This document shows positions 8,379 through 54,098 of a DNA stretch of 54,616 bases, one piece after another. How positions within the stretch are numbered: the stretch's first letter is position 1; each line of letters opens with the position of its first letter. A program made the position numbers and the translations under genes. The notes below the pieces were generated by a model. The model was not told the origin of the DNA, did not search any database, and worked only from the letters and a program-made list of their open reading frames with translations. Source of the stretch: an uncultured Clostridia bacterium (GTDB lineage Bacteria; Bacillota; Clostridia; Oscillospirales; Acutalibacteraceae); assembly GCA_944384895.1 (NCBI GenBank), contig CALWVB010000067.1, positions 1 to 54,616 of the forward strand, in the 5' to 3' direction.

Positions 8379-8558
8379 GGGGGGCGCCTGCGTGCCGCCA
8401 TATTTATAAATATGGCGGCTAAATGCAAAATAATTTGGTATAATAAAAGATACTGTTCTTAAGACAGTACCGCATCTTATATTTTCGCCCTGCCAGCTTT
8501 AGTGATTATTATTTTGCAGCAAAGCGCATCTTTTAAGATGCGCTGCGCAGGCGCCCCC
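8379..8558 (-). repeat. Structured intergenic repeat, copy 1
   Basis: 180-bp member of the ten-copy family, in reverse orientation (the CCGCCATAT hairpin comes first on the plus strand). Outer arms GGGGGGCGCCTGCG and CGCAGGCGCCCCC enclose a 10-bp GCCGCCATAT hairpin, the inner arms GCAAAATAAT/ATTATTTTGC and an AGCGCATC hairpin. The inner region additionally has a stem around TACTGTTCTTAAGACAGTA. It lies between two T7SS genes. Confidence 0.95.
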
Positions 8559-8680
8559 TACTTTTTCCGTGAACGATACCGGTTATATTTTCAGTTTATC
8601 CAGGCTTATTTTTTAATTTTAAAATTTAGTTATAATAAGTAGTTTATATATTATAGAGTTAATCAAAATATTCTAGTTAT

Positions 8681-9247
8681 TTATATGACTTCCTGCATTT
8701 TGCGCCTATAATACTCCATATCATAAGAAGCGCTTTGCTGAGTATTACGCCAGCTTTGTAAATTATATTCAGTATTGCGGATTTGATTTTTTATATTCTC
8801 TAAATCAGCATTTGCTCTGCTTAATTGATTTTGCAAATCATGGAGCTCATTGTTTAGATTTGTCTTTTTTGTTTTTAGTGTATTTAAAATGTTATTCAAA
8901 GCTGTTTTTGTTTTTGCTGTTTCATCACTATATACATCTGTGAGATTTTTAGTTTGCACACTGCTGGAATTAATCATACTGCTAAAATTTAAAGCAGCTT
9001 GATCTGTTTTATCAGAAACAGCTGAAATTTTTTCATTTAAAGCCTCTTCACTTTTCAATATATTCGTTATACCATTGAGAGCAGTTTTAGTATCATTAAT
9101 TTTAGTTTTTAATAGATTAATCTTGTTAATTGTATGCTTTTTCTGGGATTGAAGATCATTTATCCTATTTTGACAACTATTAATTTCGGAGCATGCATTA
9201 TAATACCGGTTTTTAGCATTATTATAATAGTATTCATAATCACTCAT
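8681..9247 (-). CDS. Coiled-coil T7SS-associated protein (DUF5082/YwqH-like)
   Basis: 188 aa, almost wholly coiled coil. Heptad-rich helices at about 15-65 and 105-165 flank a Ser/Thr-rich middle (FSSMINSSSVQTKNLTD). No signal peptide or membrane segment. AAGGAGAATACATT precedes the ATG. The first residues (MSDYEYYYNNAKNRYYNACS) and the arrangement resemble the YwqH/DUF5082 helical proteins that accompany LXG toxins in type VII loci; this is a shape-based guess. It is the most upstream gene of the minus-strand cluster and is separated from the TPR gene by a structured repeat, which may decouple the two. Confidence 0.7.
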   Translation of the reverse strand: MSDYEYYYNNAKNRYYNACSEINSCQNRINDLQSQKKHTINKINLLKTKINDTKTALNGITNILKSEEALNEKISAVSDKTDQAALNFSSMINSSSVQTKNLTDVYSDETAKTKTALNNILNTLKTKKTNLNNELHDLQNQLSRANADLENIKNQIRNTEYNLQSWRNTQQSASYDMEYYRRKMQEVI

Positions 9248-10015
9248 AATGTATTCTCCTTGTAAATTTTATGTCAGCTTTTTATTTATTAAGATACTTA
9301 ATTAATATATCCACAATATACTAATAAAAATTTTATGTAATATAAAGATATATTAATATAAATTTACCATAATTATTGCCTTATATTACCATTAGCACTA
9401 TATCACATAAATATATATATTTCAACTATTTTTATAATAATTATAACAATATTATTCTTAAATCAACATAATTTTACCATATCTTAACTATATTATTACT
9501 GAAAATTACGTATAAGCATTATAATAGTCTGGTATTATTAGTGCATATTAACCTAAAAATAATTATACTATAAATTACGATATTAAGAATAGTCGCAAAA
9601 CATGACGGTAAGATATTATGATATTATATAAGTAATGTTACATTTAAAATAAAAAATTGAATAATAAACTTAAAATAAGTCATTAAATTATTACAAATAA
9701 TTTTTATTAAACCAATTGAAAAGTAATTTGAAATCATAATTATAAGGTATAAAAATAGTATGAGTTGTATTTTTTACACCCCATACTATAAACTTAGAAC
9801 CTGTAATAAATAAAGGAATTTATTAATTTAAGAATTTATAATTTTTGTGAGTTTAAGATAATAAATAATCAAAACTTATAGATAAATATTAATATATAAA
9901 ATTAGTAAAATAAGAAAGGTAATTAGTAAGATATATTAAATAGTTATATTGCAAAAATGTGCCAGTTCATGCTATTCTTGTACAAGATATAGTTATATTA
10001 ATGAGGTGACATTTT
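9248..10015. other. AT-rich intergenic region between divergent genes
   Basis: About 770 bases, over 80% A+T by eye, between the divergent coiled-coil and nucleotidyltransferase-like genes. It must hold both promoters but single boxes cannot be told apart in this composition. A dyad with ATAGTATG at 9755-9762 and CATACTAT at 9782-9789 is the only clear symmetry. No gene was found. Confidence 0.5.
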
Positions 10016-11107
10016 TTGATTATAGACTATGATATGATGAGTTTTTTAAATGTTGTTAATGCAGCGTTTAATTTAGATATTAATATTGATTATTCAAAAT
10101 TAAACTATGATAATATATTTGAAAAAGCTAAATATTATCATTTATCAGCATTAGTATACTCACCAATATATAAATATGGCCAACAATATATAGACAGTCA
10201 AAAATTTGAAAATTTTCATAAGTATGTTTTTAATGAATTAAGCCTTTATTATAATACAATATTACGGATTTATAATATATTAGATAAAATATCGGAAAAG
10301 GGTTATAAAATTATTGATATGGCTCTTTTGCAAAAGCATATAAATCAATTTGCTGAAGTATCAGAATATAAATATATAAGCATTGCGGTTGAGGATTATG
10401 ATTTTGATAATATATGTAAATTATTAAAGGATTATAAAAATAAACCTTTAAATAATTATTATAAAGGACGTAAATTCTATATTGATAATTTTAAAATAGT
10501 TTTATTCAAAAAAAGTAATGTAGAAAAATATACAGGCAGACAATTATATACTCAAGCATTAGATAATAATTTATATACATTATCTGCAACTGATTATTTA
10601 ACTGTATTAGTTTTAGATCTTATGTATAAATTAGCAACGGGTTTGAATTCTATTAAATCGCTGTTATATATGAGATGTATAATAGAAAGAGATAGTTCTA
10701 AAATTGATTGGGAATATTTTTGGAAAAATGCTAAAAGACAAGGTTATGAAAAATTATATTTAGCTGTTTTCCTTATATTAAAAAAATATTTTTTATTTAA
10801 TACTGATGATTTTATTTTAAATATTAATATTAATATAAATAATGACATCATAGACGAATTCATGAAATTATTATGCAATATAGATAATGAAGGCAATAAA
10901 GACATAATAAAACATAAAAAAGATATAAGTTTAAATAACAATGATAATATAAATAAAATTTCTAATGAGTCTTTTTTAAAAAATATATTTAAAAGGTTTC
11001 AAAAACATGATACAGTTACATCATCAAATATTCAAGTTATTAAATATGATAATATTAATCAGGATAAACGAAAAGAACTGCTTTTATCTTTAGGAATACA
11101 TATATAA
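10016..11107 (+). CDS. Degenerate nucleotidyltransferase-family-like protein
   Basis: 363 aa with a TTG start at 10016 supported by GAGGTGACATTT upstream. The middle-to-C-terminal part (YLTVLVLDLMYKLATG, SIKSLLYMRCIIERDSSKIDWEYF, RQGYEKLYLAVFLILKKY) matches the layout of the uncharacterised nucleotidyltransferase family PF14907, in which a helical C-terminal half follows a catalytic domain. The usual KG...R...D-x-D catalytic core is not recognisable in residues 90-150, so the protein is probably inactive as a transferase, or the resemblance is only partial. The tail from 275 on is Asn-rich and low in complexity. It stands alone, divergent from the T7SS cluster, and is followed by a terminator. 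Confidence 0.6.
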   Translation: MIIDYDMMSFLNVVNAAFNLDINIDYSKLNYDNIFEKAKYYHLSALVYSPIYKYGQQYIDSQKFENFHKYVFNELSLYYNTILRIYNILDKISEKGYKIIDMALLQKHINQFAEVSEYKYISIAVEDYDFDNICKLLKDYKNKPLNNYYKGRKFYIDNFKIVLFKKSNVEKYTGRQLYTQALDNNLYTLSATDYLTVLVLDLMYKLATGLNSIKSLLYMRCIIERDSSKIDWEYFWKNAKRQGYEKLYLAVFLILKKYFLFNTDDFILNINININNDIIDEFMKLLCNIDNEGNKDIIKHKKDISLNNNDNINKISNESFLKNIFKRFQKHDTVTSSNIQVIKYDNINQDKRKELLLSLGIHI

Positions 11108-11112
11108 TATAA

Positions 11113-11154
11113 GGCTGCATGTTTTGGTCAATATGCAGCTTTATTTATTTTTTT
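11113..11154 (+). terminator. Intrinsic terminator
   Basis: GCTGCAT and ATGCAGC arms with a 12-14-nt loop are followed by a T-rich tail (TTTATTTATTTTTTT). It starts a few bases after the stop of the nucleotidyltransferase-like gene. Confidence 0.8.
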
Positions 11155-11278
11155 AATGGTAAAATATTATTAACTAATAAATTTCGATTTGGTAAAAATA
11201 GTTAAAATAATATAGAAAAATTATATATAAAGAATCAATCTAAATAAGAAACAGAAAACGGGAAAGTACCGCTGAGAA

Positions 11279-11451
11279 GGGGGCGCCTGCGCAGCGCATC
11301 CTTTGGCTGCGCTTTGTGCAAAATAATATTTAAATATTCAGGATGAGTTATAAAAGAAAACTATTATTTACTTAAATACCCAGTATCTTTATATGGAGAA
11401 TTATTTTGCATTTGGCAACCATATGAAATATGGTTGCACGCAGGCGCCCCC
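11279..11451 (+). repeat. Structured intergenic repeat, copy 2
   Basis: 173 bp in forward orientation. AGTACCGCT lies upstream and CAGTAACATAGCCGG downstream, as in other copies. Hairpin D is GCAACCATAT/ATATGGTTGC, a paired variant. Hairpin B carries one mismatch (AGCGCATC against GGCTGCGCT). Confidence 0.95.
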
Positions 11452-11686
11452 TTTTTTACAGTAACATAGCCGGTGAATACTTTCTATAATATTAATGTAT
11501 AGTAATATTTATATTTTGTATGATTTAAGGTAAGTCTTATTAATATAGAAAAATTATATTATGTATTATATAGAGAAGATGGTACAATTCTTTTTCAAAC
11601 CGCACAATATGATTGAATTTTAATTAATATTATTATATAATATTAATAATTAACTAAAATTTGTGTAATTGAATGGAGGATAAAAC

Positions 11687-13579
11687 ATGGAGTTTGTCCC
11701 TTATGATTCACGTGATAAAAAATATAAAAATCCATTTGGAGCAGTAGCGCAGGGAGAAAAAATTCATTTTAAAGTAAAACTTCCTCGTGATATAAAATGC
11801 AATTCATGTAAATTATTTATATGCCGTGATGGGCATTATACAGATGAAAGATATGAAATGTTCTGGTGCGGTGAAAAAAATGGTTATGAATGGTGGGAAT
11901 GCCATTATACTCCGGAAAAACCAGGATTATATTGGTATCGTTTTGATATCAGAGCTTCAGACCGATTTATGACAGTATCTTTAAGGGATAATGGTAAAGG
12001 ATATATTGGGGATGGCCTTAATTGTTGGCAATTAACAGTATATAAAGCAGGGTTTAAAACTCCAAATTGGTTAAGCGGCGGAATTATTTATCAAATATTT
12101 CCAGACCGTTTTAATAATTCTAAAGAAAAGAAAAATAATGTTTCCAATGATAGAATAATGCATAACAATTGGCGGGATGATCCGGTATGGAAACCGGATG
12201 AAGACGGTATAGTACGCAATAATGATTATTTTGGAGGAGATCTTAAGGGTATACAGGATCGTCTTGATTATATTGCTAAATTAGGTGTAACATGCATATA
12301 TCTAAATCCAATATTTGAAGCTCATTCTAATCATAGGTATAATACAGCTGATTATAACAAAATTGATCCTTTATTAGGCGATAAAAAGGATTTTAATATG
12401 CTTTGTAAAAAAGCTGAAGAATATGGTATAAAAATTATATTAGACGGAGTATTCAGCCATACTGGAAGCGATTCTATATATTTTAACCGTGAAGGACGTT
12501 ATCCAACTTTAGGGGCATACAACTCTATGCAATCGCCATATTTTAATTGGTATAAATTTAATAATTGGCCGGATCAATATGAATCATGGTGGGGTTTTGA
12601 TACTTTACCGGATGTTGATGAAAATTGTCCGGAATATCTTGATTTTATAACAGGTAAAGAAGGTATAGCATTAAAATGGTTATCGCGCGGCAGTTCCGGT
12701 TGGCGATTGGATGTAGCGGATGAGCTGCCTAATGGATTTTTAGAAAAATTCAGAAAGGCTGTAAAACAATATGACCCGGATGCTGTTATTATAGGCGAAG
12801 TATGGGAAGATGCAAGCAATAAGATAAGTTATCATCAAAGGCGTAAATTTTTATTAGGCGGCCAATTGGACAGCGTTATGAATTATCCGTTCAGAAGGGC
12901 TATTATTGATTATATAAAAGGCGGCCCGGCGATTAATCTTGTGAATACAGTTATGTCTATATTGGAAAATTATCCCCCGCAATGTACAAGAATATTAATG
13001 AATAGTTTAGGTACCCATGATACCGATAGGATTATAACAGCTATTGCAGGTGAAGATAAAGGTAATAACGGCAGGGAATGGCAAGCTGAAAGAACACTTA
13101 CAAAAAGCCAGTATAAATATGGAGTTAATATGTTAAAATTAGCTTCTATGATACAATATACTTTACCGGGCGTACCTGCGCTTTATTATGGTGATGAAGC
13201 TGGTATGACAGGTTACAGCGACCCGTTTAACAGAAAAACATATCCATGGGGAATGGAAGATAAAGAATTGGTTGAATGGTTTAAAAATTTAGGTAAAGTA
13301 AGAATTAATGCTCCAGAATTTATTGATGGAAAATTTGTCCCTCTTTGTGCGGATAATGGTTTGCTCATTTATATGAGGGTAAAAGGAAAATCAGCATCTA
13401 TGATTATTGTAAACCGTTCAGACAGGGATAGAAAAATAGAATTGCCTTCCGGTTGGATAATAAAAGAAGAAGCGGCAGGTTTCGGATATATATACGAAAA
13501 AAGTATAATATCTTCCAAAAGCTGCATACTGTTAAAGCTTTGTGCCAAAAAAAATAAAAATATTAAAGCTGGTGTTTAA
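11687..13579 (+). CDS. GH13 alpha-amylase family enzyme (neopullulanase/cyclomaltodextrinase type)
   Basis: 630-aa glycoside hydrolase that cleaves alpha-1,4 (and perhaps alpha-1,6) glucan bonds. An N-terminal beta domain of about 120 aa, as in CBM34-bearing neopullulanases, precedes the barrel (GGIIYQIFPDRF). The conserved regions are present: DGVFSH, GWRLDVADE with the nucleophile Asp near 341, IIGEVWED with the acid/base Glu near 371, and GTHDTDR with the third Asp near 444. A C-terminal beta-sandwich ends the chain. There is no signal peptide, so it acts in the cytoplasm on imported maltodextrins, glycogen or cyclodextrins. ATGGAGG-type ribosome site before the ATG. It is a single gene between a structured repeat and an empty region. 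Exact substrate not predictable. Confidence 0.93.
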   Translation: MEFVPYDSRDKKYKNPFGAVAQGEKIHFKVKLPRDIKCNSCKLFICRDGHYTDERYEMFWCGEKNGYEWWECHYTPEKPGLYWYRFDIRASDRFMTVSLRDNGKGYIGDGLNCWQLTVYKAGFKTPNWLSGGIIYQIFPDRFNNSKEKKNNVSNDRIMHNNWRDDPVWKPDEDGIVRNNDYFGGDLKGIQDRLDYIAKLGVTCIYLNPIFEAHSNHRYNTADYNKIDPLLGDKKDFNMLCKKAEEYGIKIILDGVFSHTGSDSIYFNREGRYPTLGAYNSMQSPYFNWYKFNNWPDQYESWWGFDTLPDVDENCPEYLDFITGKEGIALKWLSRGSSGWRLDVADELPNGFLEKFRKAVKQYDPDAVIIGEVWEDASNKISYHQRRKFLLGGQLDSVMNYPFRRAIIDYIKGGPAINLVNTVMSILENYPPQCTRILMNSLGTHDTDRIITAIAGEDKGNNGREWQAERTLTKSQYKYGVNMLKLASMIQYTLPGVPALYYGDEAGMTGYSDPFNRKTYPWGMEDKELVEWFKNLGKVRINAPEFIDGKFVPLCADNGLLIYMRVKGKSASMIIVNRSDRDRKIELPSGWIIKEEAAGFGYIYEKSIISSKSCILLKLCAKKNKNIKAGV

Positions 13580-14090
13580 ATAAGACAAAATATTAAAAAA
13601 TTTTACTAAGGTGGCATGAAAAACTTCGAATAATGTCGAATAATGTGTAAAATCTCTACCTGATAACAAAAATATTTCTCATATCACTTTAATTTTCTCT
13701 CGTTTTGTGGTATTATATTTACGAACCAATACTATATTTTAAATAAGCAATGGCAAAAAAATTATTAATTATTTTTGCATAAAAATACTTATATATTAAT
13801 ATGCACACAACAATTAATATAAATGCTGTTGCTTATGAAACATTAAATTCTCTAGTAATTATGTTTGCATTAAAAGATTGTTAAATAGTATTATACAGGC
13901 CGATATATGTATGTGCTCGGCACATCAAAAGTCAGGTGCGGATGGTTTAATATAAAAGATAACAATCGGCTGAAAAATATATCTGTTCTTAAATGGCACG
14001 AAAGAATAGATATTATTAAAGGTTATAATGCTGTTAAATAAAAGTATTGGCGTGCGGAAATAAGACAATCGCAAAATGTAAGCATGAAAT
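13580..14090. other. Intergenic region without a clear gene
   Basis: About 510 bases. A short direct repeat of CGAATAATGT lies near 13627-13647. A small hairpin ATGTGC-TCG-GCACAT lies near 13912-13927. No open frame with a ribosome site was found. The end probably contains the promoter of the next small gene. Confidence 0.4.
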
Positions 14091-14414
14091 TTGCGAGAGA
14101 GGGATGTGTGTTATGTGTTAAGCAAATATTTTACTCAATATTTGGGCCGGACCGGAACTGTATATCTGTATTATCACGTTACTAAACGCAGCGATGGCTT
14201 GTATGGTGTAATGATTGAAAAGATTACTCATGACGGGATATCAGAAGTTGAAACTTCAAAAGGTATATCCGAAGACAGAAGCATTGTCGATGCAATTGCA
14301 AGAATTTTATGTAGAAATTCTGTAACGCCTTGTGTACTTAATGAAATTGTTAATGATTTGACTTTGCAGCAGATTTCTTATCTTGATTATCAGGAAAATA
14401 AATTTGTAGGATAA
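14091..14414 (+). CDS. Small conserved protein, DUF6514-like
   Basis: Up to 107 aa. The beta-rich first part (GTVYLYYHVTKRSDGLYGVMIEK) and the end (LCRNSVTPCVLNEIVNDL) match what I recall of DUF6514 proteins of Clostridia, which end in a N-x-VTP-x-x-L-x-x-[IV]-[VE]-[DN]-x-L motif. The start is uncertain: TTG at 14091 gives the longest frame, but GTG at 14106 or 14115 sits at better spacing from GAGAGAGG. Cytoplasmic and probably monocistronic, followed by a strong terminator. Role unknown; members are common in spore-forming Clostridia. Confidence 0.65.
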   Translation: MRERDVCYVLSKYFTQYLGRTGTVYLYYHVTKRSDGLYGVMIEKITHDGISEVETSKGISEDRSIVDAIARILCRNSVTPCVLNEIVNDLTLQQISYLDYQENKFVG

Positions 14415-14484
14415 ATCTGTTGTTTATTATAAACGGATAATAGAGAAAAATGTATTAATGATAACAGGTATACGGGAGCCATGG

Positions 14485-14535
14485 AAAAGGACGGGAATGA
14501 TTATTTCTGACATCATTCCCGTCCTTTTCATTTTA
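14485..14535 (+). terminator. Intrinsic terminator
   Basis: A stem of at least 17 bp (AAAAGGACGGGAATGAT paired with ATCATTCCCGTCCTTTT, arms 14485-14501 and about 14511-14528) is followed by CATTTTAAATT. Terminates the small DUF6514-like gene. Confidence 0.88.
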
Positions 14536-14790
14536 AATTAATGTATACTTTAGCAGAAAAACCTTAAAGGAAAAGAAAACATCATTTAGCAAAGATATAT
14601 TAGATTTGCTGGCCATATCAAAAACAAAAGAAGGTTTTTCATGAAAGACATCTATAGATTAACACATTTAAAATGGAGAGGCCGGTATCATATAGCATAG
14701 TCTAATATAGTACAAATCACACAATGAAAAAGGAATAAATAAAAAAATTAAAACGACAAAGTATCGTAGGATGTAAAAGGTACCGTTTAA

Positions 14791-14966
14791 GGGGGGCGCC
14801 CGCGTAGCGCATCAAAGAGATGCGCTTAGGACGCAAAATAATAAATAAAAAAACAAGCAGGGATAAAAAGTGAAACAAGTATTATTTTAAATACACAGCA
14901 TTTTTATAGCCATAATTATTTTGCGTAAAGCAGCCATATGAAATATGGCTGCGCGCGGGCGCCCCC
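14791..14966 (+). repeat. Structured intergenic repeat, copy 3
   Basis: 176 bp, forward orientation. Its outer stem carries a compensated pair: the usual GCGCCTGCG/CGCAGGCGC reads GCGCCCGCG/CGCGGGCGC, so both arms changed. GGTACC lies on both sides of the element. Hairpin D is GCAGCCATAT/ATATGGCTGC. Confidence 0.95.
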
Positions 14967-15666
14967 TTTCAGGGTACCGTAAGCCGGAATGTTATTTTAA
15001 ATATTCGTATATTTTTACTTTTATTTTATTGTACGATTCAGGATAAAGTAGTGTTCGCGCTGAAGTATCAAAGGGAAGAGATGTATGGGTAATAACGAGC
15101 AGACATAGGACAAATATTGAAAAAGTTATGCAAATAAAAAGGAGTAGAAAACATTGAAAAGGAAGTATGCCCGGATCTTATCCGTATGATGGTATCAATT
15201 ATCCAGGGCATTAGTGCAGCGCAGTTTATAAGATCTATGAATCACAAGGGCACATTTATGATTTTTGACAGACAAGCAAATTTAAAATATCGGTATGGAA
15301 ATCGCCGTTTTTTACACAGAGGATTATATGCGGATACAGTGGGAAGGAAATAGTGTAATATATCCGCAATCAATTGTAAAAGGGAAATATGGAGGAGTAA
15401 ATACTGTTGAAAGAATATATTGACCCGTTTACGGGCGATAAGAAAAAAAGGGTATAAAAACGGGCTGCTTTATCAGCGGCCCGTAAAAGAATTGCAGTTG
15501 TAAACCTTATTCAGCGTCTCTTGAGAGACTGCTCATAAAATGCCCTTTCAGGTATTGTGCATACCGCAGCTAAAGCGGCGGGCTATGATTATTTTAAATT
15601 GACAATATAATATAATACAGTTTATAATAATAAAAAATGAGAAAATATTAAGGGGATTGATAAATT
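14967..15666. other. Intergenic region upstream of guaA with short open remnants
   Basis: About 700 bases. One frame stays open from about 15153 to a TAG near 15352 (contains QGISAAQFIRSMNHKG) with a GGAG upstream but no ATG/GTG/TTG start. A 16-codon frame starts at TTG near 15407 (MKEYIDPFTGDKKKRV). It is followed by an ACGGGC/GCCCGT hairpin at 15460-15483 that could act as an attenuator ahead of guaA. I see no riboswitch I can name. Confidence 0.4.
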
Positions 15667-17429: not shown

Positions 17430-17497
17430 TAATTTGGAAATTCATATTAGGTTTGCGTGAAAAATTTAAAAGCAAAATTTTGTAAGGAGTTTTTATT

Positions 17498-18447: not shown

Positions 18448-18450
18448 ACT

Positions 18451-19090
18451 TGTGTTGTTTTTGGGTAAAGGTCAATATCCTGCAAAGGGCAAAAATGACT
18501 ATTCTCCAAAATAAGAATCAGACCTTGAGGAAGAAATTCCTTGAGGTCTTTTTTATCCGCCAATTGCCGCAAAGCCTTGTAAATCAAGTGCTTTTGTATA
18601 AAAAACGGTGATTTTATATTGCTGGAAACCGTATGAAAGCACAATCCGGCTGGGATGCAGAGGATAATTGATTTTACTCCGGATAGGATAATCGTATTGG
18701 CCCCATGACATGTGTTGTTTTTGGGCAGAACCGATTTTTAACCATAGGTAAAATTTGATATTCTCGAATGACCTTAAAGGAGCAATCCTTTGAGGTCATT
18801 TTCTTTGTTCAAAATCGCAGAAAACCTTGAAAATACAAGCGATTTAGTCAATAAAATTCCGATTTCATTGCAATTAAAATTTGTACCACCGGGAAAATAA
18901 AATTTGCCCCTTTGGTTAAAATGAGCTTTGCCCCGGAAATTATGTGTTAATGGGGCAAAGGTCATTATCTTGCAAAGGACAAAAACGACCATTATCCAAA
19001 ATAAAGAATCAGACCTTGAGGAAGAAAATTCCTTGAGGTCTTTTTTATTCGCCAATTGCCGCAAAGCCTTGTAAATCAAGTGCTCACGCT
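18451..19090 (+). repeat. Three degenerate tandem units, each with an intrinsic terminator
   Basis: Units begin near 18451, 18711 and 18943 with TGTGTT and a G/T-rich stretch (TTTTTGGG in the first two). Each then has a terminator: 18521-18555 (GACCTTGAGG/CCTTGAGGTC, T6), 18769-18807 (TGACCTTAAAGGA/TCCTTTGAGGTCA) and 19012-19048 (near-copy of the first). Each ends in a tail related to CGCAAAGCCTTGTAAATCAAG. Units 1 and 3 are over 90% alike; unit 2 is divergent. This looks like the repeatedly duplicated 3' end of a mobile gene. Confidence 0.7.
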
Positions 19091-20055: not shown

Positions 20056-20072
20056 AGCAATTTGCTCAATTT

Positions 20073-26359: not shown

Positions 26360-27336
<977 letters not shown>

Positions 27337-36389: not shown

Positions 36390-36526
36390 AAAATTATATC
36401 CTCCAATGCATAAGTTTTATAGTTTACAAGATAAGTAAAATAATTATTTAAAAATAATAGCGCTGAAATTAAAAATAAAGAAAAAACGGAAAACATGAAA
36501 TATAAAAAAGTACCGCTAAGGTAAAC

Positions 36527-36701
36527 GGGGGCGCCTGCGCAGCGCATCTTTTTAGATGCGCTAAAAGCAAAATAATATGTCCTTGATTTAGCCCAAACCG
36601 ATAATAAGAAACAGTTATTATCTTAAATAACAGCATCTTATTATGGCATATTATTTTGCATAAAGCAGCCATATGAAATATGGCTGCACGCAGGCGCCCC
36701 C
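36527..36701 (+). repeat. Structured intergenic repeat, copy 4
   Basis: 175 bp, forward. Flanks AAAGTACCGCT on the left and GGTAACATAACCGG on the right. All four stems are perfect or nearly so. The inner loop has an extra GTTATT/AATAAC stem. It lies between the divergent HxlR and MBL-like genes. Confidence 0.95.
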
Positions 36702-37225
36702 ACTGCTAAGGTAACATAACCGGATAAAATACCTGATTGAGGTATAATAGCTTAAACATCAAATTTCTCTTTTAAGCCAATGCAATGAGATGCAATGACA
36801 GGTGGCGATATAATCGGATATGTATGAATAGAATCATTTTAGGTCATTACAGCAGCAAATATTTTCTGTAATATAATAAATTGTTTATTTTATCGCTTAA
36901 GTTTATTTTAGATACTATAGTTTAAATTATACTATACAGCTATTTTTGATGCAATAAGTAAAATAAGCAATCAAAAATTAATAAATATATTTTTATATTT
37001 AAAAATGCAATAAAATCTATGATAATACACATTTATTTCATATAGTTACTGCCTAATAGTTTCCTTTTAGTAACTACAGCACAATAAAGTGCGTACTTTA
37101 CGAATAAATCTAAGCTGCTTATAATATAGACAAGAGCTAAGGAAACGGCCGTTCCAAAGTAAAAAAACGAAATTATTAATAAACTTATTTGATAATACTA
37201 TATTGACCATAAGGAGGCTATTTTT
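36702..37225. other. Upstream region of the MBL-like gene
   Basis: About 520 AT-rich bases with the conserved right flank of repeat copy 4 at its start. No gene or named regulatory site was recognised; the promoter of the rightward operon must be here. A GGAGG ribosome site lies at the end. Confidence 0.4.
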
Positions 37226-40539: not shown

Positions 40540-40710
40540 GGGGGGCGCCTGCGCAGCGCATCCTTTGGATGCGCTCGAATGCAAAATAATATAAAATCAT
40601 GCAGGCCAAGATTAAAAGAAAAACAAATATTTTTAAAGAACAATAGCTTTATAAGGTAAATTATTTTGCAATAAGCCGCCATATTTTATATGGCGGCACG
40701 CAGGCGCCCC
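40540..40710 (+). repeat. Structured intergenic repeat, copy 5
   Basis: 171 bp, forward. Right outer arm shortened to four C residues. Hairpin D is GCCGCCATAT/ATATGGCGGC. The outer GTACC/GTAAC flanks are not evident in this copy. Confidence 0.93.
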
Positions 40711-40913
40711 TTTTTTAGAGGGATAAAATCAGAAGCTTTTTCTATAAATTATTATAATATTATTTTTGTTTTTTATTATGTATTTTTTGATATAATTTGA
40801 TTTAATTTAAATTTGGTAAAATAAAATTAATAAGATCCGTTTCAATTGGTTTTTATAATACTTAAAACCTGTAATACATTAATATAAGCTTTTATGGAGG
40901 TTAAAAAATAATT

Positions 40914-42421: not shown

Positions 42422-42595
42422 GGGAGGCGCCTGCGCGCCGCCATATGAAATATGGCGGCTATATGCAAAATAATATGTTAATAAAAGAAAATGTGTTAAA
42501 GAAAAACACCTGTTTTCTATCAGCAGCCTAGGTTTATTATAGAGTTATTATTTTGCATCCCAGCGCATCAAAAGATGCGCTTCGCAGGCGCCCCC
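42422..42595 (-). repeat. Structured intergenic repeat, copy 6
   Basis: 174 bp, reverse orientation. Closest relative is copy 7. The two also share about 110 bp of left flank (from 42309) including AATATTTATAATTGTATTAT. A GGGAGG change in the outer left arm becomes a G-U pair if the element is read as RNA from its forward strand. Confidence 0.95.
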
Positions 42596-42803
42596 TTGTA
42601 AAGGGTACTTTTTATCGCATGTTTTATCTTCCAGAATATATTAATTTTTTTGTACTTTGAAATTATATTATACTTTTAAAACTCATGACATGATAAAATT
42701 AAACATTAGGAAATATACTAAAAAAGAATGTCTGAAGGCCAGATATATTGAAAATAATAATTATATATAGTATTATTCTTTATATAGAAAGGAGAAATAC
42801 TAT

Positions 42804-44393: not shown

Positions 44394-44538
44394 ATATAAA
44401 ATTTTATGCTATAACTATGGGTTATACAAGAATTTTATAAAATATTTAAATATATTAACATATAAACTTTAAAAACCTATCCATTATATTATGTCTGTAT
44501 AAAATATAATATTTAGCATATTAAGAGGGTGTAATAAT

Positions 44539-45072: not shown

Positions 45073-45086
45073 TCAGGTGATGGATT

Positions 45087-46124: not shown

Positions 46125-46151
46125 TTTTTTATTATAAAAGGAGAAATTGCT

Positions 46152-46841: not shown

Positions 46842-47001
46842 GATATAACATTAGTTCATATTATAGAATATCCTAAAGTAAACAGAAAAATATCATTAAC
46901 AATATTTATAATTGTATTATTGATGTAATATATGAACATATGTGATTATACTTGATATTATACGTACAAATGAGATTATATCCGGATACGTTACCCTAAG
47001 A

Positions 47002-47173
47002 GGGGGGCGCCTGCGCGCCGCCATATGAAACATGGCGGCTATATGCAAAATAATATATTAATAAAAGAGAATATGTTAAAAAAGCACCTGTTTTCTATTA
47101 GCAGTCCAGGTTTATTATAAAGCTATTATTTTGCATCCCAGCGCATCAAAAGATGCGCTTCGCAGGCGCCCCC
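47002..47173 (-). repeat. Structured intergenic repeat, copy 7
   Basis: 172 bp, reverse orientation. Inner loop nearly identical to copy 6 (AGCACCTGTTTTCTATTAGC against ACACCTGTTTTCTATCAGC), and its left flank from 46899 also matches that of copy 6. Hairpin D has one change, T to C, that still pairs as G-U on the forward element strand. Confidence 0.95.
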
Positions 47174-47413
47174 TTTAAGCGGTACTTTTCAGCTATGTAT
47201 TTCTAATTTACCTTTTTTATAAAATAAAAAGTAAAAAATTATATAATAAAAAATTTATATAAAATATTAAACAAAATAAACAAATATACATAGTATTAAT
47301 GAAACGCTATTGTATAACAGGAATATTTAAGGTATAATACTTTCTGATATTTTATATGTTAACATAAGACATTATAAATACGAAATAAATTAGAGGGTTA
47401 AAGGAATTTTAAT

Positions 47414-48583: not shown

Positions 48584-48666
48584 TTGAAAAAACACAAAAT
48601 AAAAAACTTATGTTAAAACATTAATCTCTTAAAAGTAAATAAGGATTAAAACGTTAGCGTTCAAGA

Positions 48667-48843
48667 GGGGGGCACCTGTAGAGTGTATCTTTTGATACAC
48701 TCTTAATGCAAAATAATATAAAAATAATTATATTAAGTTAAAAAAAGAAATAGAGATTTTCTTAATACATAGCAGATGTATATAACAAATTATTTTGCAT
48801 CGTTCAGCCATATATGATATATGGCTGAACGCAGGCGCCCCCC
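48667..48843 (+). repeat. Structured intergenic repeat, copy 8 (divergent)
   Basis: 177 bp, forward. Most divergent copy: hairpin B is AGAGTGTATC/GATACACTCT, where the others have AGCGCATC/GATGCGCT, so several positions changed on both arms. Hairpin D is TTCAGCCATAT/ATATGGCTGAA. The outer left arm reads GGGGGGCACCTG. Confidence 0.92.
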
Positions 48844-48877
48844 TTAAAGGGAACGTAACCGGAAACGCTTTATTATA

Positions 48878-48922
48878 AAAAAATACCATTTGGATAAAAA
48901 ACATCCAATGGTATTTTTTTAT
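48878..48922. terminator. Bidirectional terminator
   Basis: AAAAAAATACCATTTGGAT pairs with ATCCAATGGTATTTTTTT around a short A-rich loop. Ends both the acyltransferase transcript and the leftward TIGR04076 transcript. Confidence 0.88.
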
Positions 48923-48940
48923 AGCTAAATTTATAAATAC

Positions 48941-49285
48941 TTATCTTACAGGGTTATAATCAATTTTTGATTGTTCATCAGTAGCTTCAAGTTTAAATAT
49001 TACAGGACGTAAACCATCATTACAGCTGCATATAGCAACGCCAGGTTTTCTTATCCAATCGCCATAATAAAAGACATCATTGCCAGCGCCATGAGCTAAA
49101 GCAAATACATATTGATAAATAGCTTTCCATGCTTCATCACAAAAACCTTCTGGTTTAGCATAATCAGCAAAAAATGTTTGTCCTTTTAACATCATGGGAC
49201 ATTCAGTTAAACCTTCTGCACCATATTCTTTTGCCAATTCTTTATCAAGTGTGGTTTTTAATACGGTTATTTTTACTTTTTTCAT
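48941..49285 (-). CDS. TIGR04076 family protein
   Basis: 114 aa. Opening VKITVLKTTLDKELAKEYG, then CPMMLKGQTF, GFCDEAWKAIYQYVFALAHGA and the Trp/Cys-rich WIRKPGVAICSCNDGLRPVIF are typical of this uncharacterised family. Several conserved Cys residues (about 30, 48, 87 and 89) suggest metal or redox chemistry. Cytoplasmic. AGGAGCGCTT precedes the ATG. It sits 30 bases after the Pro-rich gene on the same strand, but its content does not obviously link it to the cassette upstream. Confidence 0.85.
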   Translation of the reverse strand: MKKVKITVLKTTLDKELAKEYGAEGLTECPMMLKGQTFFADYAKPEGFCDEAWKAIYQYVFALAHGAGNDVFYYGDWIRKPGVAICSCNDGLRPVIFKLEATDEQSKIDYNPVR

Positions 49286-49314
49286 ATATAAGCGCTCCTT
49301 TTTATTATTTTTTA

Positions 49315-49743
49315 TTATGGTAATTTCTTTTTCTTTATAAGAGTAGGAGATAAATCTGTTTCTTTAGGAGGCTTTGTTGGAGGCATAGCAGGTCCTGCAC
49401 TGGTTGGAGGCAAAGTAAAATATCTTCTATTCCACTGAGATAATCCAGGCCTATTCCTACTTTCACGACGTGCAACAGCTTTACGATTTCTGCCACGAAA
49501 ACTACGTGACATGCTGTTTTGCGCTGTATTTTGTACCACTTTAATTTTATTAGGATTATCAGATATATTATCTTCTTTAATTTTAACAACAGGATTACCG
49601 TTACAATCTTGACCTTTTACAAAAGTAATTATTTCAGAACCAGTATTAGTATTTTTAATCTCTATTTTTGTTCCCTTTTTAGGATCATTGCCCATAGATA
49701 AATATACTTTTTTATTAAATCTATCAGCCATTTTTAACGTCAC
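49315..49743 (-). CDS. Pro/Arg-rich hypothetical protein paired with a SLATT-like gene
   Basis: 142 aa from a GTG that overlaps the TGA of the upstream gene as GTGA; an ATG four codons in is an alternative. N-terminal half beta-rich (ADRFNKKVYLSMGNDPKKGT, EIITFVKGQDCNGNPVVKIK). The rest is basic and Pro-rich (SRSFRGRNRKAVARRESRNR; PPTSAGPAMPPTKPPKETD), probably disordered. I do not recognise a family. Tight coupling to a two-transmembrane protein suggests they act as a pair. Confidence 0.7.
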   Translation of the reverse strand: MTLKMADRFNKKVYLSMGNDPKKGTKIEIKNTNTGSEIITFVKGQDCNGNPVVKIKEDNISDNPNKIKVVQNTAQNSMSRSFRGRNRKAVARRESRNRPGLSQWNRRYFTLPPTSAGPAMPPTKPPKETDLSPTLIKKKKLP

Positions 49744-50246
49744 TCCCTATTGCTTGCATAATTTTTGTTAAAATATTGCTCAGTTTTAATATCTGAATGT
49801 TTTTTTATCCTTTTATTTTCTAATAAGCCTGTTTGTTTTAAATTTTCTTTTGATAATTTATTGTATTTATTCTTTAATTTAAAAAGTTCATCATTAATTT
49901 CATTTTCAGTTAATTGGCCGCTTGCGACTTTAAACCATATGTATTCAGTTTCAAAAAATAAAGCTTCTAAATCATGAATAAATGTACCGCTTATTTCTAT
50001 TCGTTTTTTAAAAGGAAAATATTTATTAATGGCTGAAATAACTTGTGAAACAGCTATAATAAAACCCCAGATAAATTCAAGTTTATCCCATATAACCCAT
50101 GCTGCTATACTGGAAGAAGAAGCTACAGCTGTAATAATATTTATCCTTCTTTCCCATTTGTACGAGATATCGGCATATTCATCCAAATAAAATATCCATG
50201 CTTTTAATTGAACTAGAAAATTCCAGAATTGATTTTGAATATTCAT
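49740..50246 (-). CDS. SLATT-like two-transmembrane effector protein
   Basis: 168 aa. An N-terminal amphipathic helix, two transmembrane helices (RINIITAVASSSSIAAWVIW and LEFIWGFIIAVSQVISAI, about 33-53 and 56-75), then a long cytoplasmic helical region (DLEALFFETEYIWFKVASGQ, LFKLKNKYNKLSKENLKQTG). This is the plan of the SLATT family of predicted pore-forming effectors in nucleotide-sensing conflict systems. No nucleotidyltransferase or sensor lies adjacent. It shares an operon with the Pro/Arg-rich gene. Family membership is inferred from topology and pattern. Confidence 0.65.
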   Translation of the reverse strand: MNIQNQFWNFLVQLKAWIFYLDEYADISYKWERRINIITAVASSSSIAAWVIWDKLEFIWGFIIAVSQVISAINKYFPFKKRIEISGTFIHDLEALFFETEYIWFKVASGQLTENEINDELFKLKNKYNKLSKENLKQTGLLENKRIKKHSDIKTEQYFNKNYASNRE

Positions 50247-50334
50247 ATGCTTATACCTCCCATATTTTGTATATTTTTATTATCTCACGGCTTACTCTTT
50301 ATTGCAATAACAAATAAAAGTTATTAGATGATTA

Positions 50335-50378
50335 ACCCCCCTCATGTATGATAATTTTATTATACATGAAGGGGTCTA
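50335..50378 (-). terminator. Hairpin between XRE and SLATT-like genes
   Basis: CCCCTTCATGTAT pairs with ATACATGAGGGG around an A/T-rich loop, just after the XRE stop; the outer symmetry reaches GATGATTA/TTAATCATC. Weak T tail, so it may be a processing or operator site. Confidence 0.55.
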
Positions 50379-50876
50379 ATCATCTATCCAGCTACTGCTT
50401 GAACGGAATTTCAGCTTTTTATATTCTTCTTTAGCTTTTTCATGTTGTTCCTGTGTTATTTCATGTTCAGAGATACCGCCGCCATATGCTGCAATTTGAA
50501 TCTTATGAATTTTATTATCCATATCATCTTCAGTTTTATCAGTATCTTCAATACCTAATAATTTATCTACAGCTGGCTGCATTTCAGATTGGTCTAAATA
50601 AGCTTCTATAACTTTTCGGATATGAGGAGGTATATATTTTAAATAGTCTATGTCAGAATAAATAGTATTAGGATAAGCTTGCCTTAAAATATCAGTGGGG
50701 TCAGTTTCATAATATTCGCACATTTTTATATATGTTTCCATATCAGGTTCAGATACGCCGTTTTCATAATTGCTTATTGTATTCTTTTTAACTCCAAGTT
50801 TATTAGCAATATCCTCTTGAGTATATCCTTTATTAAGTCTGGCTTGTCTTAATAATGATAACATTGTTTGATTCAC
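50376..50876 (-). CDS. XRE family transcriptional regulator
   Basis: 166 aa from GTG at 50876, eight bases after GAGG; GTG at 50885 overlaps that site, and ATG at 50864 is a further option. LSLLRQARLNKGYTQEDIAN followed by KLGVKKNTISNYENGVSEPD is the Cro/CI-type HTH. The C-terminus is acidic and helical and ends SSSSWIDD, without a protease or dimerisation motif that I recognise. Divergent from a small gene whose promoter has a 17-bp palindrome next to its -10 box, a probable operator for this repressor. Confidence 0.88.
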   Translation of the reverse strand: MNQTMLSLLRQARLNKGYTQEDIANKLGVKKNTISNYENGVSEPDMETYIKMCEYYETDPTDILRQAYPNTIYSDIDYLKYIPPHIRKVIEAYLDQSEMQPAVDKLLGIEDTDKTEDDMDNKIHKIQIAAYGGGISEHEITQEQHEKAKEEYKKLKFRSSSSWIDD

Positions 50877-50955
50877 TCTGACCACCTCTTTATGTCAAAT
50901 AATAACACTGTTTTTTTTATTTGTAAAGAAAGTTCGATTTTTTTGATATATTATA

Positions 50956-51008
50956 TTGACTAATCAAGTTTATCGATATATACTAAAATGAGTTCAAGGG
51001 TCTTGAAC
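50956..51008 (+). promoter_or_regulatory. Promoter with adjacent palindromic operator
   Basis: TTGACT (50956-50961), 17-bp spacer, TATACT (50979-50984). Eight bases further lies GTTCAAGGGTCTTGAAC (50992-51008), a perfect 7-bp inverted repeat around GGT. Its position across the transcription start fits repression, most likely by the divergent XRE protein. Confidence 0.8.
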
Positions 51009-51065
51009 TATTTATAGGATTATTTTATATGTGGTAAATTTTTATTAAGGAGTTGAAATTTTTCT

Positions 51066-51245
51066 ATGGCAAAAACATTAAGAGTCTTACAAAATAAAGG
51101 AAAGACACAAATCTTTTTAGATGGTAAAGAAATAACAGGAGTGGAAAGATATGATGTATACAGGACAAAAAATGATACTAAAGCTAAAATCAGATTGGTT
51201 GTACGCATAGATTCAGATGTTATACTTGATTATAGAAAATCATAA
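51066..51245 (+). CDS. Small phage-like hypothetical protein (59 aa)
   Basis: 59 aa, beginning MAKTLRVLQNKGKTQIFLDG and ending SDVILDYRKS. AAGGAG lies 13 bases before the ATG. Predicted as an all-beta small domain (QIFLDGKEITGVERYDVYR ... KIRLVVRID) of the sort seen in phage and mobile-element proteins. It has its own promoter and operator, and ends at a terminator. Probably the regulated target of the divergent XRE repressor. Family unknown. Confidence 0.75.
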   Translation: MAKTLRVLQNKGKTQIFLDGKEITGVERYDVYRTKNDTKAKIRLVVRIDSDVILDYRKS

Positions 51246-51252
51246 TAAAATT

Positions 51253-51325
51253 CCCCGGTATTTCTAGTATAGCTAAGATTTGTTATCAGTTATACTTTAA
51301 TAAAATACCGGGGATAAATTTTTTG
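51253..51325 (+). terminator. Terminator with long loop
   Basis: CCCCGGTATT (51253-51262) pairs with AATACCGGGG (51304-51313) across a 41-nt loop and is followed by ATAAATTTTTTG. Confidence 0.7.
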
Positions 51326-51354
51326 TATATATAGCGAGTACCATTAGCTTAAAT

Positions 51355-51529
51355 GGGGGGCGCCTGCCAAGCGCATCAAAAGATGCGCTGGAATGCAAAA
51401 TAATAGCTGATAAAATTGGATGGGCGGATAATATAGGCTGGGTCATTGTATTTATGAACAGCAGTTATATAGCTATAATTATTTTGCATAAAACAACCAT
51501 ATAAAATATGGTTGTACGCAGGCGCCCCC
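51355..51529 (+). repeat. Structured intergenic repeat, copy 9
   Basis: 175 bp, forward. Hairpin D is ACAACCATAT/ATATGGTTGT, a further paired variant. GTACC lies 20 bases upstream and GCGTAACCGATGG downstream. One mismatch at the base of the outer stem (CCTGCC). Confidence 0.95.
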
Positions 51530-51800
51530 TTGGCTTTGCGTAACCGATGGTTTTGCTGTAAATATAAAAACAAAATCTATACACCAGAAATAATTTCTGT
51601 CTAAAAATATATAGTTTTGGATAATATCCGCTTAGTAAAAATAAATTTAATAATACAAAATAAGGCAAAGTACATATTATATCCATATAAAAATTAATAT
51701 AAATAAAAAATAGTATATAATATCTAAATAAAGAAATATAAAAACGAATATTCAATCAATTTTTAATTATGTCATAAATTTTAAAAGCATATAGAAAAGC

Positions 51801-51911
51801 AAAAAGCCAGCGCCTGAAAGGCGCGGTGAAATAAGAAATTTTTAAGGGATGGCCGTGCGCTGTCCCTTGCTGCTTTCTTAAAACAACGCGCTTAAAAGAC
51901 ACTGGCTTTTT
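51801..51911. ncRNA. Putative structured RNA, 111 nt, possibly with bidirectional terminator
   Basis: AAAAAGCCAG and CTGGCTTTTT close a multibranched fold. Inside are a GCGCCTGAAAGGCGC hairpin, a nested helix AAGAAA...AAGGGA / TCCCTT...TTTCTT, and an unpaired ACGCGC (51885-51890) that can pair with GCGCG of the first hairpin (51821-51825). No open frame. Both strands end in five T residues, so the direction is undecided. I do not recognise it as a known family. Confidence 0.55.
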
Positions 51912-51928
51912 AACAAAAAAATTATAGT

Positions 51929-51966
51929 AAAAGACTCTGACGTCTATCTAACAGATACCAGAGCTT
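51929..51966 (-). terminator. Terminator of the ABC transporter gene
   Basis: Just after the stop on the minus strand: CTCTG and CAGAG arms extended by partly paired bases, followed by TCTTTTAC. Moderately strong. Confidence 0.6.
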
Positions 51967-51968
51967 AT

Positions 51969-53705
51969 TTATCTATTTGCAAACTGGCTGTTATAAAGTT
52001 TAGCATAAAAGCCGCCTTTTTCTAATAATTCTTTATGCGTGCCCTGTTCAATAATATTACCTTTATTCATGACTAAAATAACATCAGCTTCCTCAATAGT
52101 AGAAAGACGGTGAGCTACTATAAAGCTGGTTCTACCCTGCATAATCTTTGCAAACGCTTTTTGTATCCTTAATTCCGTACGTGTATCAATAGAACTGGTA
52201 GCTTCATCTAAAATAAGCATAGGGGGTTTTGTCAGCATAATTCTGGCAATGGATAAAAGCTGTTTTTGGCCTTGGGATATATTTCCACCATCCTCTGAAA
52301 TAACTGTATCATAACCGTTTGGCAGACGTTTTATAAAGCTATGTGCATGAGCGGATTTTGCTGCGGCAATTATTTCATCATCTGTTGCATCTTCTTTACC
52401 AAATGCAATATTTTCTTTTACTGTACCGGTAAATAACCAAGTATCTTGTAATACCATACCGTAAAGTGAACGCAAACTACTGCGTTTTATATCATTTATT
52501 CCAATACCGCTGACTTTTATTTCACCATCTGTTACATCATAAAACCGCATTAAAAGATTAATAAATGTAGTTTTACCGCAGCCTGTAGGTCCTACAATAG
52601 CAATTTTTTGTCCGGATTTTACCCCAAGGTTTAAATTTTGTATAAGCGGGATTTCTGGATTATAAGAAAAACTGACATTATTTATATCAATTGTACCATC
52701 GCAGGATTTTAAATCCATAGCATATTCATCCGATGATTCATGAGGAGTATCTATAAAAGAAAATACACGTTTTGCACTAGCTAAAGCTGATTGTAATTCT
52801 GTAAATACACTGGATATTTCATTAAACGGTTTTGTATATTGATTTGCATATTGCAAAAACATAGATAATTGACCGACTGTTAATCCATGGTTTATTACAG
52901 ATAATGCGCCGGTTATACCTACAACAGCATAAACAACACCATTTACAAAACGGGTAGTAGGATTAGCTAAAGCAGAAAAAAACTGTGCTTTTACACCTAC
53001 ATCATATAACCGGTCGTTTATTTCTTCAAAATCATTCTGATTATGCTCTTCATAAGAAAATGCTTTTACAATTTTTTGATTACCTACTATTTCTTCAACA
53101 AATCCAGTCATTTCACCGCGTATCTGTGATTGCGCGGTAAATTTTGAATGGATATGTTTTGATATAAATGTTGCGACAAATAAAGAAAGCGGAGTTAATA
53201 ATATTACTACAATAGCAATATTAACATTTACATATAACATAAAAATTATAGTATCAATTATTGTAACAAGGCCGACAAATAATTGAGTAAATCCCTGCAA
53301 TACGCCTTCAGATATCTGGTCAATATCAGTTACAATACGGCTGAGGATATCGCCATGAGCATTACTGTCAATATATTTTAACGGGATACTATTTATTGTA
53401 TAAAAAGCGTCTTTACGTAAATCACGTACAGTTTTAAAGCTTAAAATATTTGTACAAAATGTAAGCAGCCATTGGAATATTGCTGATAATATTATTGTAA
53501 TGGCAAGTATTATTATAATTTTTAATACTTCACCATAATTTACGTTATCAGGTCCAATGATATAATCAATGGCATTACCGATTAATATAGGCGCAAATAT
53601 AGTTAAAGTAACACTGATTAATGCACATAAAACAGCGCCAATTAAAAATCCTCTATATGGCTTTGTATATTTAAACAGCCTTTTTATAATCCCAAATGTA
53701 TTCAT
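51969..53705 (-). CDS. ABC transporter, exporter type (MdlB/LmrA-like half)
   Basis: 578 aa with the N-terminal six-helix exporter domain (YRGFLIGAVLCALISVTLTI through about residue 300) and a C-terminal ATPase: Walker A GPTGCGKTT near 373, signature ISQGQKQ near 477, Walker B MLILDEATSS near 498, His switch IVAHRLST near 532. This is the form of heterodimeric multidrug exporters (YheH/MdlB-like), where a second half-transporter gene usually lies next to it; here none is adjacent downstream and the upstream gene is not in this window. Could work as a homodimer. Ribosome site TAGGAGAT before the ATG. Confidence 0.95.
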   Translation of the reverse strand: MNTFGIIKRLFKYTKPYRGFLIGAVLCALISVTLTIFAPILIGNAIDYIIGPDNVNYGEVLKIIIILAITIILSAIFQWLLTFCTNILSFKTVRDLRKDAFYTINSIPLKYIDSNAHGDILSRIVTDIDQISEGVLQGFTQLFVGLVTIIDTIIFMLYVNVNIAIVVILLTPLSLFVATFISKHIHSKFTAQSQIRGEMTGFVEEIVGNQKIVKAFSYEEHNQNDFEEINDRLYDVGVKAQFFSALANPTTRFVNGVVYAVVGITGALSVINHGLTVGQLSMFLQYANQYTKPFNEISSVFTELQSALASAKRVFSFIDTPHESSDEYAMDLKSCDGTIDINNVSFSYNPEIPLIQNLNLGVKSGQKIAIVGPTGCGKTTFINLLMRFYDVTDGEIKVSGIGINDIKRSSLRSLYGMVLQDTWLFTGTVKENIAFGKEDATDDEIIAAAKSAHAHSFIKRLPNGYDTVISEDGGNISQGQKQLLSIARIMLTKPPMLILDEATSSIDTRTELRIQKAFAKIMQGRTSFIVAHRLSTIEEADVILVMNKGNIIEQGTHKELLEKGGFYAKLYNSQFANR

Positions 53706-53925
53706 AAAATATTTATCTCCTATTAGGAAATTATAAAAATTTTAATTTAAAATTGTTAAGATTCATACTAAACAAAAAATTTATATTTTAAGTATAGTGA
53801 ATATCTCAATTTACTATTTTATTATACGATAGGTTTTGATAATAAATATAAATCACTCAAAACAAAAAATTTATAATAAAACTAAAATAAAAAAGGAAAA
53901 GATAATGTAAAAAGTACCGCTTATA

Positions 53926-54098
53926 GGGGGCGCCTGCGCAGCGCATCCTTTGGATGCGCTTTATGCAAAATAATTTTTATTATACTCAGACCGAGATATA
54001 AAGAGAAACTAGATTTCCTTAAATACTCATTATCTTTATATAGCAAATTATTTTGCATTTGGCAACCATATTTTATATGGTTGCACGCAGGCGCCCCC
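53926..54098 (+). repeat. Structured intergenic repeat, copy 10
   Basis: 173 bp, forward. AAAGTACCGC left flank, ACGGTAACGTAAC right flank. Hairpin D is GCAACCATAT/ATATGGTTGC; hairpin B is AGCGCATC/GATGCGCT with CTTTG loop. Near-consensus copy, 221 bases upstream of the start of the ABC gene. Confidence 0.95.

Follow-up and report, generated by a model that had tools for sequence, protein, structure and literature searches.

We analysed a 54,616-nt stretch of DNA from an uncultured Clostridia bacterium of the family Acutalibacteraceae (contig CALWVB010000067.1 of GenBank assembly GCA_944384895.1), referred to below in its entirety as the window. It contains ten copies of a structured repeat, which were recognised by their fold and by matches to a covariance model (CM). 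Seven copies lie on the forward strand, with cores at 11278–11452, 14791–14967, 36526–36702, 40540–40712, 48667–48843, 51355–51530 and 53925–54099, and three on the reverse strand, with cores at 8379–8559, 42422–42596 and 47002–47174. A first-pass annotation of the window had reported these ten copies with a common plan, and the positions, plan and strands were all verified in the sequence. Exact GCAAAATAAT sites numbered 20 in the window and formed ten inverted pairs, with none left over. The CM scores were 150.6 bits for the first copy (model R1), 167.7 bits for the third and 169.5 bits for the tenth. The eighth copy has hairpin B altered on both sides (GTGTATC/GATACAC). The motif GTACC was present outside the left arm in seven of ten copies, in agreement with the earlier count, whereas GTAAC was seen by eye near the right arm in seven copies rather than the eight counted before.

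The earlier interpretation as a structured, repeated element was partly supported: structure and repetition stood, but the size of about 175 bp covers only the core of a repeated unit of about 350 bp. The full unit of the third copy spans 14702–15051 on the forward strand (flank profile matches at 14702–14789 on the left and 14965–15051 on the right), with an uncertainty of about 2–3 bp at its right end. A near-full unit was recovered for the tenth copy (53846–54194, forward strand; flank profiles at 53846–53924 and 54099–54194), and the flank profiles also matched around the second copy (left 11224–11274, right 11452–11533). The element was confirmed to have no long open reading frame (ORF) of its own. 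Its location between genes held for most copies but not for the third, which interrupts a decayed IS200-type tnpA gene. The 5' part of this gene (MKDIYRLTHLKWRGRYHIA), identified by three-frame translation, lies at about 14641–14701 on the forward strand and extends to the element; the 3' part follows on the same strand at 15045–15353 (PF01797, profile positions 8–110, four stops), its match sharing a few bases with the end of the element. The copy at 51355 overlaps with a possibly spurious reading frame of 96 aa.

The genome from which the window derives (G000) is an 88% complete draft of 2,166,773 bases in 143 contigs, several of which end in elements. Genome-wide, we found 267 exact pairs of inner arms, compared to none for a reversed-pattern control. 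The CM was run on 859,398 bases of this genome, window included, and detected 102 distinct loci in the first 585,648 bases (E up to 1e-5, strands merged, hand-counted) and 50 further loci in the next 273,750 bases. The density in the scanned DNA was about one core per 5.7 kb, a value biased high, as stretches were taken from copy-bearing contigs or in contig order and part of the second batch was chosen for strong matches.

Sampling of other genomes was partial. The exact inner-arm pair was absent from 146 other genomes of the order. When two mismatches were allowed, the arm pattern gave one to five matches in 43 of 199 other family genomes, which we attribute to chance, given how many there were and the values in the control columns. 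In the congener G147, no core was detected in 247 kb (best E 0.25) and no arm pattern genome-wide; the DNA examined had a G+C content of 50%, making this genome too distant for an empty-site comparison. A CM search of 120 family genomes was shallow, with 23 candidates scored per genome. In a scan of a sequence collection, four viral stretches matched, none with a GC-rich inverted repeat around the match. A collection of genome contigs, perhaps without the genome studied here, yielded at least eight single matches, also read as chance.

The four-way junction core

In each copy, the core folds as a four-way junction whose helices are separated by few unpaired bases: an outer stem closing the structure, hairpin B, an inner stem whose loop measures about 70 nt, and hairpin D. 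Three classes could be distinguished. The main class comprised 86 copies of the first batch, measuring 171–181 nt from arm to arm. The second (11 copies, 123–152 nt) and third (three copies of about 84 nt, range 82–85) kept the four helices with other sequences, and the third, represented by L016:15299–15382, L096:4963–5047 and L109:16194–16275, consisted of four near-perfect helices and almost nothing besides. Three cores were unusually long at 246–251 nt (L013:3164–3414, L013:11965–12213 and L112:388–633), the two in L013 having a preserved hairpin D stem whose loop is enlarged by about 75 nt. Two further copies, at about L104:3720–3760 and at L014:13315–13362, consisted of little more than the outer palindrome, as would result from loss of the core that the arms enclose.

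Covariation was assessed in 42 chosen copies, 11 of them from the second class. RNAalifold returned three helices with 30 pairs, and the addition of hairpin D by eye brought the total to 40. Of 1608 cells, 97.1% were paired. Two-sided changes were found in 22 of 40 pairs, compared to a mean of 7.4 after shuffling, and pairing dropped to 34–55% in slid controls; these figures are biased in favour of the structure, as it was derived from the same sequences on which it is scored. Across 95 distinct loci, taken as the best strand among 150 aligned CM matches, 3785 cells comprised 3704 Watson–Crick pairs, 12 G·T pairs and 69 other mismatches. Single-sided changes produced A·C 38 times and G·T 11 times. 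This excess of A·C was rejected as a signal because it was due to one junction column (26 cells), without which the counts were 12 and 11. G·U was not tolerated among the variable pairs, with G·T no commoner than A·C. Since an RNA helix would tolerate wobble pairs on its own strand, the near-absence of G·T on either strand argues for a reading at the level of DNA. We read the core helices as being either under constraint as DNA or subject to correction of the arms as DNA; the data fit both.

Strong covariation, together with a T-run after the right outer arm, is also what a structured RNA or cis-regulatory element (riboswitch, attenuator or terminator) spread by duplication might present. The orientation of neighbouring genes was counted for 70 copies with both neighbours, using simple ORF calls and excluding five further copies that overlap a reading frame. 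It was even (++ 20, −− 21, +− 15, −+ 14), and the resulting 41 tandem, 15 convergent and 14 divergent arrangements were similar to those of long gaps in general (93, 27 and 34). The comparison of the window with Rfam gave no matches at the curators' gathering score, as the first-pass annotation would have led one to expect. Even orientation, lack of an Rfam match and scarcity of wobble pairs led us to reject a riboswitch or attenuator and make an RNA element of any of these kinds very unlikely.

Ends and target site of the mobile unit

Close pairs of copies could be aligned across the inner arms and for about 130 bp on the left and 140 bp on the right of them, where the alignments stopped at constant places. 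These stops delimit the mobile unit, whose ends lie about 90–100 bp outside the outer arms. Multiple alignment gave TTTTCTAAGATAATTTAAATCACTCAAAAC as the left end and TTTGATTTAGGATAATATAGCTTT as the right end. Among 131 oriented copies in 859 kb, both ends were recognised by profiles in 36, at unit lengths of 322–378 bp; the remaining copies, whose flanks had diverged or which were truncated at a contig end, were left out of the site analysis. Away from main-class cores, the end profiles matched contig ends, a decayed copy, two short-class copies and, weakly, one stretch of 26 nt. The element ends read ...ATATAGCT|TT and TT|TTCTAAG..., and joined together they would form inverted arms around a TT core, TGATT-N15-TT-N15-AATCA. 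AATCA was found at +15 in 27 of 36 copies, and TGATT, TAATT or TTATT on the other side in 32.

The target was derived from the 32 both-ended copies outside the tnpA genes then known, one of which (L112:14358) may by eye sit in a decayed tnpA. It is an AT-rich palindrome around the insertion point, TATnG-NN-TT-NN-CnATA. On the left flank, T occupied positions −4 and −3 in 30 and 31 of 32 copies, T position −9 in 23, A position −10 in 20 and G position −7 in 11. On the right flank, we found T at position 1 in 31 copies, C at 4 in 14 (p-value 1.7e-5), A at 6 in 27 (p-value 2.6e-8), T at 7 in 23 and A at 8 in 20. The p-values reached 3e-12 at the TT, while the smallest among 72 control positions was 0.013. 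The orientation of the element relative to the TT was fixed in 30–31 of 32 copies. Each junction is thus half target and half element, the halves meeting at the TT. A two-sided target with a fixed non-palindromic dinucleotide is the usage of serine recombinases.

The first-pass annotation had seen no evident target duplication, and neither the fixed-offset nor the longest-match tests revealed anything clear beyond the TT. A 10-bp repeat in L110 is within the range given by cross-pairs. The two bases before CTAAG were TT in 17 of 32 copies and the two after the right-hand TTT in only five, indicating that the left TT is part of the element in most copies. This count bears on a classical miniature inverted-repeat transposable element (MITE) moved by a DDE transposase with a target duplication of TT or longer (TTTNN). 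Inverted ends, a palindromic target and a weak excess of shared bases beside the TT would suit such an element. It would leave unexplained why the left TT mostly belongs to the element and why a single orientation of the TT is used, which is unexpected for symmetric strand transfer; furthermore, similar ends in related genomes carry a large serine recombinase (LSR) gene, as described below. No autonomous partner with the same ends, and no DDE gene bearing them, was seen in the examined DNA of the genome, although no DDE family was searched for. We therefore regard a MITE of this type as an unlikely alternative, though the least unlikely of those considered here.

Entry into tnpA and related integrase elements

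A PF01797 profile search of the genome gave 15 rows at 12 loci. In eight of these (contigs C5, C39, C9, C12, C67, C114, C98 and C123), the element is located at one codon of tnpA, between HIVF and APKYRR, the position being judged at least at the 3' side. The third copy in the window is one of these cases. The element has the same orientation as tnpA in seven of the eight. In the remaining one (C114, locus L121), the site is the usual one and the core is inverted, as recombination between its arms might produce. The tnpA genes in C22, C63 and C46 are uninterrupted by the element and broken in other ways, and C64 has a 3' piece. In C39, tnpA is intact on both sides of the element, while the loci in C5 and C114 have an intact 3' part and run off their contigs. 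Three more 5' junctions were found in C99, C7 and C88, and some of these may represent the missing halves of C5 and C114. A copy is also present in a decayed tnpA that has no Pfam row (L022). This copy (L022:770) and that at window position 14833 align over about 797 bp at 80%, far past the element, which may reflect duplication of the entire block.

The history of these insertions was examined on trees built from the 3' parts of 11 tnpA genes and from 39 elements, with unsettled bootstrap values. Residence in tnpA of seven elements took five changes on the tree, at least four of them by well-supported branches, and these may be gains or losses. With shuffled labels the mean was 6.5 changes, and 47 of 500 shuffles were as low as observed. 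By branch sums, about 1.0 change per site separates the hosts in C12 and C39, compared with about 0.2 for their elements. The elements, being much closer than their hosts, are younger than the split of those hosts, and from this contrast in depth the codon was entered more than once.

Both the exact tnpA position and the state of the genes could be read as signs of a self-splicing, intron-like element resident in tnpA: both parts of the gene are intact in C39 and the 3' part in C5 and C114, while the three uninterrupted genes are broken. Against this, most copies lie outside genes in either orientation, and no conserved unpaired stretch was seen by eye in the variant copies. No group I or II intron was matched in Rfam, either in the window at the gathering score or up to E 5 in 64 kb holding other copies, where T-box and 5S rRNA matches, suggestive of Bacillota, were obtained. 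Such an intron is the least probable of the explanations considered.

Alternatively, the TnpA of IS200 (Y1, HUH) could mobilise the element as folded single-stranded DNA, as in REP/REPIN or IS200-derived palindromic elements. The genome offers 12 tnpA loci, eight with the element inside, the left target is T-rich and the core folds as a single strand. However, conservation extends to the right flank (C4, A6, T7, A8) instead of being confined to the left, which is unexpected for single-strand insertion read from the left. Some 95 bp separate the core hairpins from the ends, the hairpins flanking tnpA look unlike B and D by eye, and insertion splits the supposed mobiliser. We consider mobilisation by TnpA improbable.

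Larger elements occupy the same codon in relatives. From 200 family genomes, we collected matches to tnpA with E values up to 1e-20 and took a match start at profile position 9–10 as the signature of an interruption. Six such loci were found outside G000. Four of them, three in G232 and one in G242, were preceded by a different, larger element ending in TGATTGAGAATACT or a close variant; the other two (G168 and G308) showed no larger-element end, and a comparison tnpA (L175) was uninterrupted. The G242 element is about 11.2 kb long, and its other end adjoins the tnpA 5' part. Among 398 family genomes including G000, the tnpA 5' part was joined to the left-end motif in G000 (six cases), G242, G338 and G358, the last three representing three other genera in which tnpA is joined at the same codon to a similar end. 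One more genome, G272, matched with one mismatch but not in tnpA, and the reversed control gave one match.

The left-end consensus of G000, compared in a fixed register, agreed with G242 at 18 of 28 positions (shuffle p-value 1.2e-4), with G338 at 18 and with G358 at 16. The right-end consensus agreed at 14 of 22 positions with G242 (p-value 9e-4) and at 15 and 14 with two G232 copies. TGATT and AATCA lie 15 bp from the TT on both sides in G000 and G242 alike. Recombinase reading frames were found behind the left end in G242 and G338 (93% identical over 147 aa), while in G358 the stretch behind this end is too short to show any recombinase. The G242 protein has Resolvase, Recombinase and zinc-ribbon domains. 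Within G000, the tnpA of C98 (L122:1186) has a G242-like end matching at 19 of 23 bases, the sole match in 873 kb, compared to none for 20 shuffled patterns. From this match, elements of the G242 type seem once to have been present in this genome. The same decayed tnpA holds a four-way element, and its G242-like end faces the tnpA 3' part.

The LSR domain PF07508 was detected in five places in the genome, including an LSR with DUF4368 at L131:779–2353. LSR genes lie near elements in C87, C140, C112 and C58; we took this as no evidence of a link because there is one element per about 5.7 kb. A literature search by title and abstract, of partial coverage and hence weak, found nothing linking LSRs with IS200 tnpA or miniature elements.

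Some other features of the window were recorded. A 37-nt piece at 4606–4642 resembles a hairpin B arm with outer arm and flank (84% and 89% to two copies) and lies within a 454-aa reading frame (4314–5678, minus strand), between two imperfect gene repeats. The 21.6 kb from 14968 to 36525 are without any core, carry genes for a small serine recombinase (26722–27336), WG-repeat and VWA/C-type lectin proteins, and are perhaps a later acquisition. There are two direct repeats: a perfect one of 33 bp (54321–54353 and 54584–54616), with its second copy flush against the contig end, and one of 59 bp (18534–18592 and 19026–19084; 98% identical, spacing 492 bp).

Proposed mobilisation and comparison with known systems

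Our reading, which we consider probable, is that each copy is a miniature, non-autonomous mobile element of about 350 bp that depends on a multi-targeting LSR acting in trans for its movement. That the mobilising enzyme is an LSR is inferred from three observations: a central dinucleotide with inverted half-sites at both target and ends, an outer motif near position 16 on both sides as in attP, and a related integrase element at the same site (left ends in G242, G338 and G358, LSR frames in G242 and G338). In the mechanism we propose, the unit would be excised as a circle, bringing the TGATT and AATCA arms together at the joint. An LSR of the same genome, for which a 525-aa DUF4368 protein on contig C87 is the best candidate, would exchange strands at the central TT, and the circle would re-insert at pseudo-sites. 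Most copies hitting genes would be lost, leaving survivors mainly between genes. The four-way core would most likely serve multiplication or excision of the element, for example as an extruded junction or folded single strand, though this is a guess.

Several points weigh against this reading. Conservative recombination by an integrase does not alone account for hundreds of copies. Four of 20 tests, run with a misplaced right end in about five rows, gave hints of duplication at p-values of 0.03–0.06, and four of the 15 copies without TT before CTAAG repeat the same two bases on the right (1.5 expected, p-value 0.04); across all copies, such a two-base repeat occurred in seven of 32 (4.1 expected, p-value 0.07). 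The registers of the ends were picked after their likeness had been seen. The profile match to the catalytic domain of the G242 LSR starts only at position 56, and the G338 gene is fragmented, so neither enzyme may be active. None of the LSRs of G000 could be linked to the element beyond proximity, and that of G242 has just a 27% partial match in this genome. Finally, the part of the larger elements that was examined did not contain a recognisable four-way core (the best match, at E 0.22, lay outside the element), giving no sign that the core came from that family.

A broader proposal, which we put forward only tentatively and hold to be somewhat doubtful, is that these mini-elements are parasitic on large serine integrases and carry as cargo a DNA four-way junction under DNA-level constraint, whose helix sequences turn over and through which, extruded or folded as a single strand, the element multiplies to hundreds of copies. 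High-copy mini-elements of bacteria are usually traced to DDE or HUH transposases. If LSR mobilisation is true, the family would be a naturally occurring catalogue of pseudo-attB sites, numbering in the hundreds, for a multi-targeting integrase, helping the understanding and engineering of such enzymes. It also raises the question of why so short a mobile unit retains a near-perfect four-way junction of DNA although much of the unit's sequence turns over.

Among known systems, the REP/REPIN, ERIC, BOX and bcr repeats likewise occur as many intergenic palindromic copies, but the element differs from them in its four-way plan and defined, site-specific ends. With IStrons, as described in PMC4227781, it shares a T-rich left target, a structured insert and forms without an ORF; here, in contrast, there is no group I intron match, the target is two-sided and there is no IS ORF. 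Like the IS-derived MITEs of PMC3852290, the element is short, gene-less and high in copy number, with ends resembling those of a larger element. Unlike them, the similar ends belong to an integrase element rather than an IS, only TT is clearly common to both junctions and the core is four-way.

For serine integrases, the inner half-site is described as common to attP and attB, with an outer zinc-domain motif at positions 16–24 from the centre in attP (Rutherford et al. 2013, PMC3783163). The 15-bp spacing of TGATT and AATCA puts them at the place of this motif. A further likeness is to multi-targeting LSRs, which use many sites per enzyme and commonly have DUF4368 (Durrant et al. 2022, PMC10083194). 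One such LSR has a TT core with T/A-rich flanks, and the LSRs of this class include Cp36 from Clostridium perfringens; IS200, IS605 and tnpA are absent from the main text of that paper. The likeness lies in the TT core and T/A-rich flanks of the one example, in the many sites per enzyme and in DUF4368, which the candidate LSR of the genome also has. The difference lies in the cargo: there, the integrase gene travels inside the element, whereas here it is a gene-less unit of 350 bp that has the ends.

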